NCBI RefSeq assembly: GCF_900606115.1
Contig: NZ_UWPJ01000007.1
Span: 1-64,000, forward strand
Origin: Pigmentiphaga humi
GTDB taxonomy: Bacteria > Pseudomonadota > Gammaproteobacteria > Burkholderiales > Burkholderiaceae_B
Direction: 5' to 3'
Length of the DNA stretch: 64,000 nucleotides
This document shows, in pieces, positions 38,008 to 45,384 of the stretch (its first letter is position 1; each line of letters opens with the position of its first letter). The notes under the pieces are model-generated. The model made no database searches. It was not told where the DNA came from and was given only the letters and a program-made list of their open reading frames with translations. The translations under genes were made by a program, and so were the position numbers.

Positions 38008-39675
38008 CTACCCTTCCGCGTACACCCATCGGCCGCCCACCATCGTGGCCAGACACCTCAGATCGCGAAGCGCCTCGGCCGGCGTCGCCAGCGGGTCGCC
38101 GGACAATACGGCGAGATCGGCATGATGGCCGGCAACGAGCTGCCCTTTTTCGCCTTCTTCGAACGTGAGCCAGGCACCGCCCCGGGTCACCAGGCGCAAC
38201 GCCACCTCGTTCGACGCAATGCCGCCCGGCCCCATGACCCGCCCCGTGGTCCGCTCGCGGCGGGTAGCCATGGCCCACATGCAGAACAGGGGATCGTAGG
38301 GCACGGAATCCGTCCCGGCAGCCACCGGCACGCCCAGCTCGAACAACTGGCGGGCCGGCGAAACGTAGTCCATGGCCTGCGGATCGATGGAGAGAAACGG
38401 CCTGCCATGCTTCCACAGGTACTGGCCGGGAATCAGCGTCGTGCCGACCCCGAGGCGTCGCAGCGCAGCCAGTTCGTCCGGCGTGGACCGGCTGATGTGC
38501 TCCAGCACCCAGCGCCGCTCGCCGATGGGGAAACGCCCGGCGAGCCGCTCCATGACCGGGACGATTTGCGACAGCTTGTCGGACACCACCGTATGCACGC
38601 GCAGGTCGTACTGCCCGGCGAGCATGCACAAGGTCTCGAACTCTTCGGTCGAATTGGCCTGCTGCACGTAGCCCGACCATCCCATGTAGTCGAGTTCGCG
38701 GCGCTGGATGGCCTGGACGCAGGGGTCCCCGCCATGCGCGAGGAACACGCCGGACACCCGGAACACGGCATCGCCTACGCCCCGCCCCCTGAGCAGCGGC
38801 GCCCAGTCGCGCATCGCGGCGGCCGCCTCCTCCAGGCTGCGCCAGCGTGGGCTGACGGTCATCGCGGTGCGCATCGTCAGCTCGCCGCGCTCCCACATGT
38901 CCCGGTAGGCGGCGATCACCTCGGGAGCGCTGCCGTGGCCCTCGTAGATGCTGGTGATGCCGGCGCGATGATAGAGATCCATCGCCCGGACGATGCCCTC
39001 TCGCCGCTGTTCGTAGCTGAAGCGGGGCACCGCCGGCAGCAGGTCCGGCTCCAGGGTGTTGACGAAGCCCAGCTCCGTGAACAGGCCCAGCGGCTCGCCA
39101 TCGGCGTCTTTCTCGATGATGGTCGCGGGTGTCGCCGGCACCGTGCCGCGTCCGACGCCATTGAGCGCCAGGCCCAGCGAGTTCATCGCGGCATGGCAGG
39201 GCGGCTGGCCCCAATACCCGCTGGGAGACGGGATGTAGACGGGATGGTCGGGCGCCACGCTGTCCAGTTCGTAGCGATTGGGCAGCCGGCCTTCGCGCAG
39301 CGTCGATGGCGCGTCGAAATAATAGGGAGGCTGCCCCGCCGGCATCGTGACGATCCACTGCCCGGGCGGCGTGCGCTGCGCCAGGCTGCGGATGCGCGCG
39401 AGTATCTCGGGGATGCCGTGCGCCCCCTCCAGGGTCGGCCGTATGAGCCGCGTGCCGATGGAGTCCATGTGGGCATGGGCATCGTTGAAACCGGGGATGA
39501 TCGCGCAACCGGGAAAATCCCTGACTTCGGTTCCCGGTCCGCGCAGCGCCAGCATCGCCTCGCGGCTGCCGGTGGCCAGCACCCTGCCGTTCCCGATCGC
39601 GAGCGCCTGCGCGCGCGTGCCGGCATCGTCCAGCGTCAAGACCTGCCCCAGCAGAATCGTATCGGCCCGCCTCAT
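38008..39675 (-). CDS. Metal-dependent amidohydrolase (YtcJ-like)
   Basis: A 555-residue amidohydrolase of the YtcJ group starting at the ATG at 39675, with GGAAGG three bases upstream; the frame extends to 39798 without family resemblance. Metal-binding elements are GFNDAHAHMDSIG (near residue 65), a His in VLEHISRSTPDEL (near residue 390) and PVAAGTDSVPYDPLF (Asp near residue 450). It ends in the small composite beta domain (HADLAVLSGDPL). Members hydrolyse cyclic or N-acyl amides. Its pairing with a gamma-glutamyltransferase-like gene suggests sequential amide hydrolysis, though the substrate is unknown. Confidence 0.88.
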   Translation of the reverse strand: MRRADTILLGQVLTLDDAGTRAQALAIGNGRVLATGSREAMLALRGPGTEVRDFPGCAIIPGFNDAHAHMDSIGTRLIRPTLEGAHGIPEILARIRSLAQRTPPGQWIVTMPAGQPPYYFDAPSTLREGRLPNRYELDSVAPDHPVYIPSPSGYWGQPPCHAAMNSLGLALNGVGRGTVPATPATIIEKDADGEPLGLFTELGFVNTLEPDLLPAVPRFSYEQRREGIVRAMDLYHRAGITSIYEGHGSAPEVIAAYRDMWERGELTMRTAMTVSPRWRSLEEAAAAMRDWAPLLRGRGVGDAVFRVSGVFLAHGGDPCVQAIQRRELDYMGWSGYVQQANSTEEFETLCMLAGQYDLRVHTVVSDKLSQIVPVMERLAGRFPIGERRWVLEHISRSTPDELAALRRLGVGTTLIPGQYLWKHGRPFLSIDPQAMDYVSPARQLFELGVPVAAGTDSVPYDPLFCMWAMATRRERTTGRVMGPGGIASNEVALRLVTRGGAWLTFEEGEKGQLVAGHHADLAVLSGDPLATPAEALRDLRCLATMVGGRWVYAEG

Positions 39676-39995
39676 TACCCTTCCATTTGCTTGATGGCGG
39701 CGTCCGGTCCATCGGGTCGCCGATCCGGCCGCCGGCCGCAGCGCCCTCCTCCGGCATCGGGCCATTATGGCGCCGCCACCACGTGGGCAGCGCAGCAAAA
39801 GGCTGACGCCATGGACGAATCTGCTTATGGCGACGGCGGCGGGTCCGCCCCTTTCCCGCCAGGCGCAACAAAATGCTTCTACCGCTGCCGAAAGCGCTTA
39901 TGCCCCGACACGGCTGCCGCAACCGGTGGCACAGTTGGCGCTAGAAGCTGCTCGCGCAGCATCGCCTCGTGACGTTTTTCTCCGGACAGATAACC
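39676..39995. other. Divergent intergenic region (320 bases)
   Basis: This separates the amidohydrolase (minus) from a Bug gene (plus) and must hold promoters for both. No palindrome matching the other operators and no RNA gene was recognised. Confidence 0.4.
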
Positions 39996-40976
39996 ATGAA
40001 AACACCGCTGCTCCCCACCGTGCTCGCCGCGACGCTCCTGACCCTGGCCGCGCCGCTGGCCGCCCAGGCCCAGGCCTATCCGAACAAGCCGGTCAAGATC
40101 GTCTCGACCTTTCCCGTCGGCGCCGGACCCGACGTGGCGCTGCGGCTCGTGGCCGACAAGCTGTCGCAGAAATGGGGCCAGCCCGTCGTGGTGGAAAACA
40201 AGCCGGGCGGCAACGGCTTCATCGCGGTGGACGCGGTCAAGCGCAGCGCGGCCGACGGCTATACGCTGGTCCAGATGGACAACGCGCAGACCAGCGCCCA
40301 GCCCTATCTGTTCAAGAAGCTGCCCTACGACCTGATGCGCGATTTCGAGCCCATCACGCCGATGCTGCGCAACTACTTCTTCCTGGTCGTGCCGGTCGAC
40401 AGCCCCTACAAATCGACCGGCGACCTGCTCAAGGCCGCGCGCGCGCAGCCGGGCAAGATCACCTACGGCTCCTGGTTCATCGGCAGCCCCGGCCACATCG
40501 GCGGCGCGATGCTGGAACAGGAGGCCGGCGTGGAGATGATGCACGTCCCCTACAAGGAGATGGGGCAGCTGTACACCGCCGTAGCCAACAAGGAACTGGC
40601 CTGGGCCTTCGGCAGCGGCGGCAGCGCCGGTCCGCTGCAGCGCGCCGGCAAGGTGCGCTACCTCGCCGTGTCGTCGCCCAAGCGGCTGGAAGGTTTTCCG
40701 GAAGTGCCCACCATCAGCGAATCGGGCGGACCGGCGGGCTACGACCTGATGGGTTCGGTGGCGCTGCTGGCGCCCAAGGGCACGCCCGCCGAAATCGCCG
40801 ACAAGATCCAGGCGGACGTCGCCGCGGTGGTGCGCGACCCCGAGATCGCCAAGCGCTATGACGGCATGTTCTACGAACCCTATACGATGACCCGCCCCGA
40901 GTTCGTCAAGACGCTGGCCGACGAGAACCGCAAGTTCGGCCAGGTGCTGCAGAAGCTGAACATCGCGCTGGATTGA
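39996..40976 (+). CDS. Bug/TctC family periplasmic binding protein
   Basis: A 326-residue receptor with a signal peptide (MKTPLLPTVLAATLLTLAAP, cleaved near AQA-QAYPNKP). Bug landmarks: VKIVSTFPVGAGPDVALRL, VVVENKPGGNGFIAVDAV and MMHVPYKEMGQLYTAVANKE. The start is the ATG at 39996, with an alternative upstream at 39969. It is divergent from the amidohydrolase/GGT pair and converges on the TusA-MetE fusion gene, separated by a strong hairpin. The ligand may be the amide substrate of the divergent enzymes (inference). Confidence 0.9.
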   Translation: MKTPLLPTVLAATLLTLAAPLAAQAQAYPNKPVKIVSTFPVGAGPDVALRLVADKLSQKWGQPVVVENKPGGNGFIAVDAVKRSAADGYTLVQMDNAQTSAQPYLFKKLPYDLMRDFEPITPMLRNYFFLVVPVDSPYKSTGDLLKAARAQPGKITYGSWFIGSPGHIGGAMLEQEAGVEMMHVPYKEMGQLYTAVANKELAWAFGSGGSAGPLQRAGKVRYLAVSSPKRLEGFPEVPTISESGGPAGYDLMGSVALLAPKGTPAEIADKIQADVAAVVRDPEIAKRYDGMFYEPYTMTRPEFVKTLADENRKFGQVLQKLNIALD

Positions 40977-40982
40977 GCTCCT

Positions 40983-41017
40983 GCGCGCTTCCGCGCGCCC
41001 TACACGCGGAAGCGCGC
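40983..41017. terminator. Perfect 13-bp hairpin between convergent genes
   Basis: GCGCGCTTCCGCG (40983-40995) pairs perfectly with CGCGGAAGCGCGC (41005-41017) around a 9-base loop, six bases after the Bug stop. The loop holds the stop codon of the convergent TusA-MetE gene, so the right arm encodes its last residues. There is no T run; it may be a bidirectional termination or RNA-protection element. Confidence 0.6.
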
Positions 41018-42502
41018 CACCGCCTGGGCGATGGCCGCCAGTTTTTCCTGCGCGTGTCCGGCCGAGCAGATGGCGTTGTCGGCGAAGGTGGCGAAGCCGC
41101 AGTCCGGGTGCAGCAGCAGGCGCTCGCGCCCGAACAGGTCGATGCCGCGCTGGATGCGCGCCGCCACCCCGTCCACGGACTCCACGCTGCAGTCTTTCTG
41201 GTTGACCACGCCTATGCCTATGCGCGCATCGTCGGGCAACTGCTTCAGGATCTCGACGTCGCCGGCGCGCGGCGTGCACATTTCCAGCAGATAGGCGCCC
41301 ACCCGCACCTGCGCCAGCGTACCGACCAGGGGCGCGTAGCTGCCCGCGAGGGCGACGCTTTCGTCGGGAGTCCAGTTGCCGCGGCACACGTGCAGCGCGG
41401 TGCGCTCGCGCGGCATGCCGTCGAACACGGCATTGAGCAGATCGCGCGCGAAGCCCAGTTCCTGTTCCGGAGGCAGGGACTCGGATAGCGCTCCGCACAT
41501 GAAGCTGCGCTTGTTCTTGGCGCCGGCGAACACCACCTCGGAAAGCACGGGCTCGTCGAACTGGATGATGGAGGCGCCCGCATCGAGCAGTTCCTGCAGC
41601 TCCTCGCGCAGCACCCGGACGATGTCCGCGGCCAGTTGCTCGCGGCTGTCGTAGGCGCGGTCGGAAATGCATTCCATCCACATCGTGCGGGTGAGCAGGT
41701 AGGGGCCGGGCAACGCGACCTTGACCGGCTTGTCGCTTGCCGCGCGCAGGAAATCGACCTCGTGCGCCACCAGCGGGCGCGAACGCGACAGCGCGCCGAA
41801 CACCGCCGGATGGCGGACGTCGCCGGCGGGAATGTCGAGCGCGCGCAGTTCGGCGGCGAATTCCTCCGGGTCGTCCACCAGCGGCAGCAGGTCGGCCAGC
41901 GGGATCAGCTGGCAGTTGTCCAGGCGCGAAGCGACGAAACTCGCGTAGCTGTCGCGCCGCTGCTCGCCGTCGGTCATGACGTCGACGCCCGCCTTCTCCT
42001 GGGCCGCCACGACCAGGCGCACGGCATCGTCCGCCGTCTCGTGGAAGGCCGCCTCGGAAAGCCGCCCTTCCACATAGGCGTGCATGGCCTCGATCATCCA
42101 GCGCGGCCGGGGCCAGCTGCCTATGCCCATGACCGCCAGCTCCGGCACCGGCGGCGCGGCGACGGGCTCGCGGCGGCGCATGGGCGCCGCAACCGGCGCG
42201 GCCGGTTCGACCGCCGCGACAGCCACAGCCGCATCGCGCTCGGCCAGCCGGCCCTTGCAGACCAGGAAGCTGCGCTGCTTGCCGGTCTTGGTCCACGAGA
42301 CCAGTTCGTTGCCGGTCAGGCGGCACCAGGCCGGCAAGTCCTCGTCCACGGAGATCTCGCGCGACAGGATCTCCAGCAGGCCGCCGCGCGGCAGCGGATC
42401 GATATGTTTGCGGATCAGCAGCAGCAAGCCGTTGCCGCAATCGAGATCGCCGCCGTCGAAGCCGACGTCCGGCGCATGCGCGTGTTGGGCCGAAAGTTCC
42501 AT
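41000..42502 (-). CDS. Fusion of a TusA-like domain with a MetE-type (cobalamin-independent) methyltransferase barrel
   Basis: About 500 residues from the ATG at 42502. Residues 13-85 form a TusA/SirA-like domain: Cys22 in LDCGNGLLLLIRK stands where TusA has its sulfur-carrying Cys, but followed by Gly instead of Pro, and Cys60 in LPAWCRLTGNELV. A Pro/Ala linker follows (residues 95-120). Residues 122-500 are a methionine synthase C-terminal barrel (MGIGSWPRPRW; FDEPVL). Zinc ligands appear as His371-x-Cys373 (LHVCRGN) and Cys468 (HPDCGF), with a Glu near 407. The fusion suggests that a sulfur species is brought on the TusA domain to the methyl-transferring zinc site. It is last in a five-gene operon. 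Confidence 0.82.
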   Translation of the reverse strand: MELSAQHAHAPDVGFDGGDLDCGNGLLLLIRKHIDPLPRGGLLEILSREISVDEDLPAWCRLTGNELVSWTKTGKQRSFLVCKGRLAERDAAVAVAAVEPAAPVAAPMRRREPVAAPPVPELAVMGIGSWPRPRWMIEAMHAYVEGRLSEAAFHETADDAVRLVVAAQEKAGVDVMTDGEQRRDSYASFVASRLDNCQLIPLADLLPLVDDPEEFAAELRALDIPAGDVRHPAVFGALSRSRPLVAHEVDFLRAASDKPVKVALPGPYLLTRTMWMECISDRAYDSREQLAADIVRVLREELQELLDAGASIIQFDEPVLSEVVFAGAKNKRSFMCGALSESLPPEQELGFARDLLNAVFDGMPRERTALHVCRGNWTPDESVALAGSYAPLVGTLAQVRVGAYLLEMCTPRAGDVEILKQLPDDARIGIGVVNQKDCSVESVDGVAARIQRGIDLFGRERLLLHPDCGFATFADNAICSAGHAQEKLAAIAQAVARFRV

Positions 42503-42528
42503 GACCGTTTCCAATAATGCAGTGGCAA

Positions 42529-44088
42529 TCAGGCGCGCCGGCGGCGCCCCAGTTCGAAGCCGACGACCAGGCAGCCGAGCGCGAGCAGCGCCAGCGCGAT
42601 GATCAGCGACGGCGACATCCCCGCGCTCGCGGCCGGTTCCTGCGGCTGCGCGGGCGCTTGCGCGCCCGCAGGCGCGGCGTTGCCATCGGCGCGCGCCGCG
42701 GCATCGTACATGCGTGCCAGCATGGTGCGCCCGACGTCTTTCAGGATGGCCTGGCCCGCCACGCGCCCCTGGCCCAGCACCAGGTCGACGCTGGCCACCT
42801 CGGGGCCGCCCAGGTTGATCGAGCGCGCGCCGTCCTTGTCCTCCACGTGCCAGGCGGTGACCTTGTCGCCGTCGATGGCGTCCACCACGATCTTGAAGTA
42901 GCCCTCCGGGCCGGTTGCCGAAGCGCCGGGCTTGAGCCGGATCTCTTCCTTGTTGACCAGCATGAAGCCGAAGTTGTGCCCGGTCGGGCAGCCGACGGGA
43001 TAGGAGGCGTAGCGCGGATCCGGCGCGTAGTCCTCGCCGTAGCGCAGGCTGAACGCCTTGCCGTAGACCTTGAGGTTGGCCTTGCCGCCCTCGAAGGCGT
43101 TGGGCCAGGGCGACAGGAACGCCACCATGTCGCCGTCCTCGAACACCAGCGCCTTGCGCGCGGCGGTATCCTCGATCAGCAGCTCTTTCTTGACCGGACC
43201 CACGGTGCGGGTATTCTTCACTTCGCCGTTCTCGAGCAGTTCCAGCGTCGCCGTGCCGGCCTGCTCGTCGACCTGGGCGACGCGCAGCGTGCGCGCGCCG
43301 ACCTGCCAGGAATCGCCCTGCGCGGCCAGGCCGGCGAAGACTTTCTGCTCGGCCAGCAGCAGCCGGTCCATGCGTATGCCGCTGAGCCAGTCGAACTCCA
43401 GCTTCTGCGGCGAGACCTCGCGCGCCTGCCCCTGGTTGTAGAGCTGCGTGAAGCGGTTGCCCCACCAATTGGTTTCGTTGGCCGACAGCACGGGCGCGCC
43501 GAAGGCCCATTCCCAATCGGTGCCGGCGATGGTCTTGACGTGCAGCGCATGGTTGGCCATGGTCTCGTGGCCGACCGTCGCGTAATAGTGGTAGACCGTG
43601 CCGCCCACGACCGCGCTGCCGCCGGCCGGAATGGTCACGTTCTCCTGCACCTCGATGGACATGTCGTAGTCGACGTAGGTCGCCATGCGGCCCAGCACGG
43701 GCACGATCTCGCCGCGCAGCGCGACCTCGCCGCCCCAGGTGTCCTCGTGGTAATACAGGCCGCCCGGCGGAATGACCACCTCGCCGTTCTCGACCCGGCT
43801 CTTGCGGATGAACACGCCGTCGAACTTGGGAATCTTGCGGCCGAAATCGTCGCTGACCATGCGGTATTGCGGCAAGCCCGGCAAGCCGGCCACGTATGCC
43901 GGCTTGACCGGGCGGTCGGCCATGGAAGAGAGCGGCGGCGGCGCGAGAGGCTTGTCGGCCAGCGGGTGCGCCAGCGGCAGGCCCGGACGCGCCGGGGTCA
44001 ATATCGCGGCATAGTCGGCGGCCGCTGCGGGCGCGACTTGGACAAGCACCAGCATCGCCGCGGTGGCGGCGGCAAGGCGTCGTTTCAT
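42529..44088 (-). CDS. Exported, membrane-anchored protein of unknown function
   Basis: A 519-residue protein with an N-terminal signal peptide (KRRLAAATAAMLVLVQVAPA, cleavage near AAA-DYAAI) and a C-terminal transmembrane helix (SPSLIIALALLALGCLVVGF) followed by ELGRRRRA. Before the helix is a Pro/Ala/Gln-rich linker. Thus the body is periplasmic, tethered to the inner membrane. The central 400 residues are beta-rich, with repeated short glycine turns such as VIPPGGLYYHED and IPAGGSAVVGGTVYHYY, and a single Cys near residue 370 (SYPVGCPTGHNFG). I do not recognise the family. Its place inside a sulfur-carrier operon suggests a sensor or substrate-handling role. Confidence 0.75.
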   Translation of the reverse strand: MKRRLAAATAAMLVLVQVAPAAAADYAAILTPARPGLPLAHPLADKPLAPPPLSSMADRPVKPAYVAGLPGLPQYRMVSDDFGRKIPKFDGVFIRKSRVENGEVVIPPGGLYYHEDTWGGEVALRGEIVPVLGRMATYVDYDMSIEVQENVTIPAGGSAVVGGTVYHYYATVGHETMANHALHVKTIAGTDWEWAFGAPVLSANETNWWGNRFTQLYNQGQAREVSPQKLEFDWLSGIRMDRLLLAEQKVFAGLAAQGDSWQVGARTLRVAQVDEQAGTATLELLENGEVKNTRTVGPVKKELLIEDTAARKALVFEDGDMVAFLSPWPNAFEGGKANLKVYGKAFSLRYGEDYAPDPRYASYPVGCPTGHNFGFMLVNKEEIRLKPGASATGPEGYFKIVVDAIDGDKVTAWHVEDKDGARSINLGGPEVASVDLVLGQGRVAGQAILKDVGRTMLARMYDAAARADGNAAPAGAQAPAQPQEPAASAGMSPSLIIALALLALGCLVVGFELGRRRRA

Positions 44089-44132
44089 GAGGAGACCCCC
44101 GGTTGTCTATCGTTATCGGTTATTGACGTCGT

Positions 44133-44675
44133 TCAATGCTGCGCCTGCGGCGCGCATGCCGTTCCCCCCGCCTGGGCGGGCGGCAATGCGCAGGTCGCCA
44201 GACGACGCGACAGGAACAGCGTTCCCCAGGCGGTGAACAGCAGGGTATTGAGCGCGATCAGCCATTTCGGCACCCCCGCGAGGAAGCTGCCCGCCACGCC
44301 CAGCCCCACCACCGAAAGCGCCGGCGCGATGCAGCTGATGCACAGCGCGGACACCGCCAGCACGCCGCTGCCGGCGGCCACACCTGCCGACGCCGCACCG
44401 CCCCGGCGGCCCGCCACCAGCGCGAAGGCCATGAAGGCGAAGGCCAGCCCCACCGTCAGCGCGGTGAAGTACTCCTGCTTGCGCACGAAGCTCACTTTCC
44501 ATGCCTCTGTCCGCGCATAGGCCAGGCCTTCCGCGGCGGAGAACTCGCCCGGCAGGAAGCCGCACTCCTCGGCGGCGGACTCGGTGGCCGGCATTTCGAA
44601 CACGGCAAAGCTCACGGCCACGTAGCCGAGCGCCGCCAACAGGAACACGATGGCCATCAGGCGTTTCGGAATCAT
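44133..44675 (-). CDS. Small integral membrane protein with a paired-cysteine helix
   Basis: A 180-residue inner-membrane protein with four predicted hydrophobic segments: residues 5-27, 70-90, about 100-130 and about 138-156. The third holds Cys-x2-Cys inside the membrane (ALCISCIAPALSVVGLG), and further cysteines occur in the loop (AEECGFLPG) and tail (ATCALPP, TACAP). Intramembrane cysteine pairs occur in thiol- or metal-transporting proteins such as MerT/MerC, but this is no close match. Its operon partners carry sulfur on cysteines, so transport of a thiol or sulfide is a plausible role (inference). Confidence 0.72.
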   Translation of the reverse strand: MIPKRLMAIVFLLAALGYVAVSFAVFEMPATESAAEECGFLPGEFSAAEGLAYARTEAWKVSFVRKQEYFTALTVGLAFAFMAFALVAGRRGGAASAGVAAGSGVLAVSALCISCIAPALSVVGLGVAGSFLAGVPKWLIALNTLLFTAWGTLFLSRRLATCALPPAQAGGTACAPQAQH

Positions 44676-44718
44676 GCTTGTATCCGGATCAAAGATGGGA
44701 TTGGATGCGGCCCGGCGA

Positions 44719-45078
44719 TCAATAGCAAATGCTCGGCGCGCCTTCGCTCATGAATTCGACCAGCTTGGCGCCGCCGACGATCTTGGCGCCGGCCACCAGG
44801 TTCTCTTCGTCCAGCCCGCGTTTCTTGAAACACGGCGAGCACACGTAGATCTGGCCGCCCGCCTCGGCAAAACTGGCCATCAAGTCCTTGAGCGGCGCGA
44901 AGCCTTCTTCATGGATGTCGTCGGCATATCCCTTCTGCGACAGGCGCGTGCCTTCGACCGACAGGAACACCACGGTCTCTTTGTCGGACGCCACGGCGGC
45001 ATTGGCGATGACGAAGCCCACGGTGGCCTTGTCGGTATCGTTCTTGGCGCAGCTGATGGAAACCACGAATTTGCTCAT
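44719..45078 (-). CDS. DsrE/DsrF-like sulfur-carrier protein
   Basis: A 119-residue protein of the DsrE fold. The start KFVVSISCAKNDTDKAT and the Cys80-x2-Cys83 pair (IYVCSPCFKKRG) match the DsrE family, where a Cys at this position carries persulfide. A further Cys10 and Cys118 (SICY at the end) are present. A good AGGAG is six bases before the ATG. DsrE proteins exchange sulfur with TusA-type partners, and a TusA-like gene lies 42 bases upstream. It is second in the operon. Confidence 0.88.
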   Translation of the reverse strand: MSKFVVSISCAKNDTDKATVGFVIANAAVASDKETVVFLSVEGTRLSQKGYADDIHEEGFAPLKDLMASFAEAGGQIYVCSPCFKKRGLDEENLVAGAKIVGGAKLVEFMSEGAPSICY

Positions 45079-45120
45079 GTCGGACTCCTGAAGAAAAAAG
45101 GGGACTGCGGGGAAAGCGGA

Positions 45121-45384
45121 CTACCAATCCAGGCGCGATCGTATCCAGAACCCATGGGCCTGGGCGTCGTAGCGCAGAAGCTCGTTGCGGGTCATGCGGC
45201 ACCACGCGGGAATGTCCTCGGGCGCGCCGGCGTCGCGGGTGACCATGTACAGCACCTGGCCGGGCATGGCGCGCAGGCGGCGGCGCAGGCGCGACACCAA
45301 TGCGCCGCAGCCCATGTCGCCGGCGTCCCAGGTGTCGGCCACGGCGATGTCGCCCGCCGGGACGGGAAGAGGCGTATCAGTCAT
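45121..45384 (-). CDS. TusA-like sulfur-carrier protein
   Basis: An 87-residue TusA/SirA-like protein. Cys29 is in GDMGCGALVSRLRRRL and Cys60 or so in IPAWCRMTRNELL. Both positions and the CG (not CP) variation match the N-terminal domain of the fusion protein at 42502, so the two are paralogues in one operon. It is the first gene. The ATG at 45384 has no strong ribosome site. The canonical CPxP TusA motif is missing, so either the chemistry differs or the Pro is dispensable. Confidence 0.8.
   Translation of the reverse strand: MTDTPLPVPAGDIAVADTWDAGDMGCGALVSRLRRRLRAMPGQVLYMVTRDAGAPEDIPAWCRMTRNELLRYDAQAHGFWIRSRLDW

Follow-up and report, generated by a model that had tools for sequence, protein, structure and literature searches.

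A five-gene proteobacterial operon with a TusA-MetE fusion is linked to selenocysteine use and may supply selenium by demethylation

The use of methylated selenium has been described, in the sections of two papers on which we drew, as a corrinoid-dependent process of anaerobes (PMC11097638; PMC10418091). In Methanococcus, SdmABC is linked to the use of dimethylselenide, and the TusAD transcripts of Methanococcus maripaludis rise 4.5-4.6 log2-fold on selenium depletion (PMC11097638, in the sections used here); the type I mlp clusters are said to be exclusive to anaerobes and to tend to occur with selenocysteine (Sec) genes (passages of the preprint PMC10418091). Among carrier proteins, YedF combines a TusA-like (SirA-like) domain with one of the DsrE type and is found together with SelD, according to the available part of PMC5322559, and the Tso, Sao and UGSC selenoprotein neighbourhoods (Haft) are treated in the portion of a review that we consulted (PMC13188914). 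Here, we analyze an operon in a 64,000-nucleotide stretch of Pigmentiphaga humi (assembly GCF_900606115.1, contig NZ_UWPJ01000007.1, positions 1 to 64,000; the whole stretch is referred to as the window), which encodes a TusA-like protein, a DsrE-like protein, a membrane protein, an exported protein and a fusion of TusA-like and MetE-type domains. Its link with selenium is well supported by co-occurrence and by gene neighbourhood in two lineages. We favour the reading that proteobacteria obtain selenium for selenocysteine through the operon, with the MetE domain demethylating methylated selenium, and put this forward tentatively, with nearly an even chance of being right; a role in selenium metabolism in general, which takes in two of the alternatives discussed below, is considered probable. 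An earlier annotation made from the sequence alone (the sequence-only reading) had supposed the system to be undescribed, and indeed no description of the operon was found in the literature searched on TusA/DsrE/MetE and selenium use.

The five open reading frames were confirmed, all on the minus strand of window positions 41000-45384 and in the order orf1-orf2-orf3-orf4-orf5. The intergenic gaps from orf1 to orf5, calculated from the reading frame coordinates, were 42, 43, 44 and 26 bases, in agreement with the 26-44 bases given before. The features are as follows, with the residues of orf5 counted from the ATG at 42502.

45384-45121, minus strand: orf1, TusA-like carrier of 87 amino acids (aa), with a PF01206 match over the cut-off
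45078-44719, minus strand: orf2, DsrE-like protein of 119 aa, with a PF02635 match
44675-44133, minus strand: orf3, membrane protein of 180 aa without a family match, with four invariant Cys
44331..44342, minus strand: CISC (CxxC) motif of orf3, within a hydrophobic segment
44088-42529, minus strand: orf4, exported beta-rich protein of 519 aa with a C-terminal membrane anchor, without a family match
42976..43002, minus strand: YPVGCPTGH motif of orf4, holding the invariant C367 and H371
42502-41000, minus strand: orf5, TusA-MetE fusion of 500 aa from the ATG at 42502
42254..42424, minus strand: TusA-like domain of orf5, with the CGNG motif and the invariant Cys22 and Cys60
41009..42139, minus strand: MetE-type barrel of orf5, retaining the zinc ligands and the homocysteine residues

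Operon loci were located by using orf4 as the query. The five genes were on one strand and in one order in 21/21 loci compared gene by gene, and each gene shared 53-92% identity with its counterpart in the 20 other loci, indicating that the operon is not a product of chance. The joint conservation by which the sequence-only reading had said its proposal should be judged was thus found throughout. Ten of the loci came from a named-genome collection and belong to Bordetella ansorpii (two), B. hinzii, B. genomosp. 12 and 13, Aquabacter (two), metagenome-assembled genomes of Rhizobiales (two) and Amaricoccus. When the genomes with orf4 were counted, with the centre genome included each time, it was present in 10/268 genomes of the window's own family, in 10/198 of the Aquabacter family and, among 295 genomes of the Amaricoccus family, in Amaricoccus itself alone; across the phylum, the window was the sole convincing match among 398 genomes. 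It was also present in 3 of 72,556 plasmid records, all from Paracoccus, and the TusA-MetE fusion, at a query coverage of at least 80%, was found in the same three among the 381 plasmid records with any match. These counts and the shared gene order indicate that the operon is a unit of rare and patchy occurrence. A tree of three concatenated proteins placed the window copy beside the Bordetella copies, in a larger supported group that also takes in the Aquabacter, Amaricoccus and Paracoccus copies.

SelD and SelA are both required for selenocysteine. In the operon genomes searched whole, SelD was found in 21/21 and SelA also in 21/21. These genomes represent, without double counting, three sets that each had SelD in all members, namely, the operon genomes of the window's own family (10/10), those behind the loci L004-L013 (10/10) and those of the Aquabacter family (10/10). 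They correspond to the 21 loci compared above, except that Paracoccus (L026) is among the loci only and that G257, the operon of which is split over two contigs, is among the genomes only. The SelD scores of the operon genomes, wherever listed, each exceeded 400 bits. In the Aquabacter family, the presence of SelD in 10/10 operon genomes compares with 88/198 overall, giving a hypergeometric probability of 2.2e-4, which ignores shared ancestry. In a third family surveyed besides these two, SelD was detected in 89/120 genomes, mostly as matches of the ~300-bit kind in long frames.

Furthermore, Sec genes were found beside the operon. The fusion gene of L066 is followed on its own strand by selD (model match C14:10019-10948), and the genes for tRNA-Sec, selB and selA are within 8 kb on the opposite strand; this region is flanked by genes that, by eye, we take to be fdhE and formate dehydrogenase subunit genes. 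In Paracoccus ferrooxidans (L026, plasmid), selA and trxB directly follow the fusion, a SufS-type desulfurase gene is divergent to orf1, and, at distances of up to about 8 kb, there are a UGSC selenoprotein gene, selB and the tRNA-Sec gene; genes matching these Sec neighbours were also present in P. versutus (L025). The UGSC gene (L026:6969-7538) reads ...LANUGSC... with TGA as Sec, and it is annotated as two hypothetical proteins because the TGA was read as a stop. The operon of Amaricoccus adjoins a SufS-like gene, which is divergent, and a gene for a UGSC-family protein, the latter scoring 131.9 bits in Pfam and 49 bits in NCBIfam, where it stays under the cut-off of 125. In addition, three Bordetella-like genomes (G088, G085 and G024) have orf4 and selD on one contig at a distance of 41 to 79 kb, a spacing that is weak evidence for selenium.

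Sulfur had been the element proposed in the sequence-only reading, with sulfur of methanethiol, dimethylsulfide or thiosulfate passing via orf3 to the zinc site and being methylated or demethylated there. Such a role accords with TusA and DsrE being best known as sulfur carriers and with the SufS-type desulfurases that flank the operon in Amaricoccus and Paracoccus. However, it leaves the presence of SelD and SelA in all the operon genomes searched whole unexplained, and no genes for sulfur oxidation or thiol catabolism were recognised by eye in 12 of the 20 other loci, which were partly read and not in a systematic manner; a sulfur-oxidation cluster was rejected for this reason. With Sec or UGSC-family genes adjoining it in L066, Paracoccus and Amaricoccus, and with the SelD and SelA counts given above, sulfur is not supported as the element, and we consider the sulfur version improbable. 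The demethylation option of the sequence-only reading may be kept, with selenium in the place of sulfur.

The domain assignments were examined against family models. Pfam scores were 33.4 bits for orf1 against TusA (cut-off, 28.6), 61.6 bits for orf2 against DsrE (cut-off, 22.7) and 105.3 bits for orf5 against the MetE catalytic domain (cut-off, 21). Cys26 and Cys62 of orf1 were present in 20/21 aligned rows, the L035 row being cut to 13 residues and the same genome being intact as L021, while the L009 row is masked at Cys26 and uninformative at that position; the second of these cysteines sits in AWCRMT. In 21/21 rows, H56 and the CSPC motif (C80 and C83) of orf2 and Cys22 and Cys60 in the TusA domain of orf5 were invariant. 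The solved structure closest by sequence to the MetE barrel of orf5 is 3RPD, and the homocysteine residues were mapped via the 3RPD alignment and the residue list of PMC7857596, the consulted part of which names zinc- and homocysteine-binding residues of MetE. The zinc ligands H371, C373, E407 and C468 and the homocysteine residues S129, E180 and D316 were all kept in 20/20 rows long enough to be read, the fusion row of L005 ending at its contig end. On the architecture of carriers plus a zinc methyltransferase, the sequence-only reading was right.

With its single MetE-type barrel and the zinc and homocysteine residues kept, the fusion resembles the core methionine synthases (MesA-MesD), from which it differs in having an N-terminal TusA domain, fixed partner genes and hosts that all have MetH. 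The intact residues would also suit an ordinary B12-independent methionine synthase with the other four genes as unrelated neighbours. This explanation is highly unlikely, considering that MetH was found in 21/21 operon genomes (above the cut-off in 20 and, in G670, partial with 1007.4 bits against 1010.85), that the five genes remain together in all the loci and that the best score of orf5 against the NCBIfam methionine synthase models was 170.9 bits, far under the cut-off of 406. With MetH present, the fusion is not needed as the methionine synthase of these genomes and is not their sole one, so that the refuting condition which the sequence-only reading had named on this point fails as well.

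Neither orf3 nor orf4 was matched by any Pfam or NCBIfam model at E<=1. In orf3, hydropathy analysis placed C112 and C115 within a hydrophobic stretch at 94-135, consistent with the intramembrane CxxC claimed before; however, this motif turned out to be part of a set of four cysteines (C38, C112, C115 and C162) that are invariant in 21/21 rows. Hydropathy also indicated a signal-like N-terminus and a single hydrophobic C-terminal segment at 485-515 in orf4, as anticipated for a membrane-anchored exported protein. H174, H183, C367 and H371 of orf4 are invariant in 21/21 rows and are a possible metal or selenium site. A first structure model of orf4, from 11 sequences, was poor, with a predicted local distance difference test score (pLDDT) of 53, and a second one, of residues 25-470 from 18 sequences, had a pLDDT of 72 and a predicted template modelling score of 0.75. 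In Foldseek searches with these models, solely the archaeal S-layer DUF1608 domain was found under E 0.001 both times (3u2g with E 1.2e-5 in the first search, then 3u2g with E 1.8e-6 and 3u2h with E 2.1e-4), with template modelling scores below 0.3. The likeness of the modelled orf4 to this S-layer domain is thus weak and local and implies no function or chemistry. A search of the PDB by sequence with orf4 gave nothing significant, the best E being 0.36.

In 3/21 loci, three genes for a PhnCDE-like ATP-binding cassette (ABC) transporter are inserted between orf4 and orf5, as listed below; in the stretches fetched for the remaining 18 loci, a set of this kind was not found.

L067:7848-10445: PhnCDE-like insert, candidate selenium-compound importer
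L069:6942-9485: PhnCDE-like insert, candidate selenium-compound importer
L071:6054-8529: PhnCDE-like insert, candidate selenium-compound importer

The inserted transporter belongs to the same superfamily as PhnCDE and the putative selenate transporter (TIGR04553). In L067, orf3 and orf4 form one open frame of 715 aa (L067:10493-12640), which may be a natural fusion or may come from a sequence error or missing stop.

The transporter bears on the possibility that the operon captures and carries selenium without any movement of methyl groups, in which case the MetE barrel would serve as a zinc site that takes up or gives off selenide or perselenide of the TusA domain and the imported selenium would be inorganic (selenite, selenide or another such form). 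All of the evidence from Sec co-occurrence and neighbourhood fits this as well, and the inserted transporter is of the phosphate/phosphite/phosphonate family, members of which bind oxyanions. The homocysteine residues, on the other hand, would be superfluous for a mere carrier and are kept in all the rows long enough. We regard this alternative as rather unlikely.

In the favoured reading, supply of selenium with demethylation by the MetE domain, orf4, on the outer side of the inner membrane, and orf3, embedded in that membrane, would capture and import a selenium compound, and the PhnCDE-type ABC transporter may assist the import in some genomes. The imported compound would probably be methylated, such as methylseleninate, methylselenol or dimethyl diselenide, and its selenium would be bound as a methyl-selenenylsulfide (CH3-Se-S-Cys) to the Cys in the TusA domain of the fusion. 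The MetE domain would then activate homocysteine on zinc, and the homocysteine would accept the methyl group to give methionine, while a perselenide would remain on the TusA Cys and be relayed via orf2 (DsrE) and orf1 (TusA) to SelD for the formation of selenophosphate. Homocysteine is suggested as the methyl acceptor because the homocysteine site is intact, and a Cys-bound methyl donor is suggested because a carrier domain is fused; in Sec-using genomes, methylated selenium in the form of a selenenylsulfide is a plausible donor. Both halves of this scheme have precedents, in SdmABC, the TusAD transcript response and the type I mlp clusters, and in the pairing of carrier domains in YedF. For the demethylation mechanism as such, the chance would be somewhat under even. 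The combined proposal of cobalamin-independent demethylation of TusA-bound methylselenium in aerobic-type proteobacteria, with the perselenide relayed to SelD and dedicated uptake by orf3 and orf4, is held to be doubtful as a whole.

Methyl transfer in the opposite direction was also considered, since methylation is described as a means of selenium detoxification in the sections used of PMC11097638. An enzyme that joins a methyltransferase to a chalcogen carrier could methylate carrier-bound selenide to volatile methylselenol or dimethylselenide. MetE-type enzymes, however, need a methyl donor, and none was found among the five proteins, be it a folate-binding half, a corrinoid protein or something else. 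The fact that the operon genomes searched whole belong to Sec users in 21/21 cases and the linkage with selD and selA also point to supply rather than disposal, making detoxification quite improbable.

Compared with the described systems, the operon as we favour it, a supplier of selenium by demethylation, would share with SdmABC of Methanococcus and the type I mlp clusters the proposed demethylation of methylated selenium and the tie to Sec genomes, as far as the sections consulted describe them. Unlike those systems, which use corrinoid proteins and coenzyme-M-type methyltransferases, it has a MetE-type enzyme fused to TusA, together with carriers and with one membrane and one exported protein. 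No corrinoid protein or corrinoid methyltransferase was found among the five proteins, the neighbouring genes having been inspected by eye at some of the loci and not systematically. As for YedF, it holds both carrier domains in one protein, whereas TusA and DsrE are encoded by separate genes in the operon, the TusA domains of which are without CPxP. No model of YedE (ten-helix), YedF, Tso or Sao matched any of the five proteins at E<=1.

Several observations weigh against the favoured reading of selenium supply with demethylation. Selenium as the cargo, its import by orf3 and orf4, the transfer of the methyl group and its direction, and the delivery to SelD are steps that we infer. CPxP is absent from both TusA domains, in which the Cys is kept: orf1 has CGAL, varying among CGAL, CGEL, CGPL and CGIL across the rows read, and the fusion has CGNG in 21/21 cases, while CPLP is present in another TusA (L001) of the window genome. 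The TusA domain of orf5 scored 23.9 bits in the Pfam scan and 27.6 in the genome search, both under the cut-off of 28.6. With respect to the transporter, the PhnD-like binding protein of L067 scored 154.2 bits on the general phosphate/phosphite/phosphonate model (cut-off, 112.05); on TIGR04553, the model for a 'putative selenate ABC transporter', it reached 81 bits, under the cut-off of 250. In the window genome, the operon is on contig C24 and selA-selB-selD are on contig C22, where a formate dehydrogenase gene, the Sec position of which is an in-frame stop (TGA by the frames printed), is followed by selA, selB and selD (L032:1-10114). Neither selA nor selB was found in the stretches fetched for L004-L013 and L033-L037 or in the window, and selD was not found in two Paracoccus plasmid records, a search that covered plasmids and not chromosomes. 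The co-occurrence counts ignore shared ancestry, and in the window's own family SelD was present in 211/268 genomes overall against 10/10 with the operon, an excess that is not significant (0.087) because SelD is so common there. Moreover, of the 10 further genomes in the genus of the window, 9 have SelD and none has orf4. As the genus relatives mostly have SelD without the operon, the operon is an accessory of Sec users and not part of Sec synthesis. Finally, operons without orf4 would be missed, since orf4 was used to find the loci.

Further observations were made on genes around the operon and the Sec loci. A transglutaminase-core protein is encoded beside the operon in Paracoccus (L026:7942-9048), and relatives of it adjoin selD in 5/6 alphaproteobacterial selD loci (L043-L047; not L048); it was not seen near the operon in L066. 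A transglutaminase-like protein is listed in the YedF table of PMC5322559, in the part seen, and the transglutaminase-core protein is possibly a further selenium gene. In Amaricoccus, a second selD locus (L052) holds additional copies of selA and selD next to a UGSC gene that contains Sec and is separate from the formate dehydrogenase-type Sec cluster (L051) of the same genome. Downstream of the operon in the window, 39969-40976 on the plus strand, just beyond orf5, presumably encodes a Bug/TctC-type binding protein, and 38008-39798 on the minus strand an amidohydrolase, both named by eye. An Rfam scan of the window gave nothing at the gathering threshold. Three weak matches of orf4 elsewhere in the phylum (E 2.5e-4 to 9.4e-4) were also obtained, two of which overlap long frames, presumably of FAD-linked oxidases by eye, and were discounted as chance matches; this inspection covered the two and not the third match (L028).

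The operon bears on the question of how selenium is delivered to SelD without harm to the cell and without being swamped by sulfur, for which it offers two membrane or exported proteins without a recognised family, three carrier modules and a zinc methyltransferase. If the demethylation is true, it would represent a corrinoid-free route for the use of methylated selenium, and, to our knowledge, the fusion would be the first selenium enzyme of the MetE family. If the reading of uptake with demethylation is true, the operon would also provide the first dedicated selenium importer.

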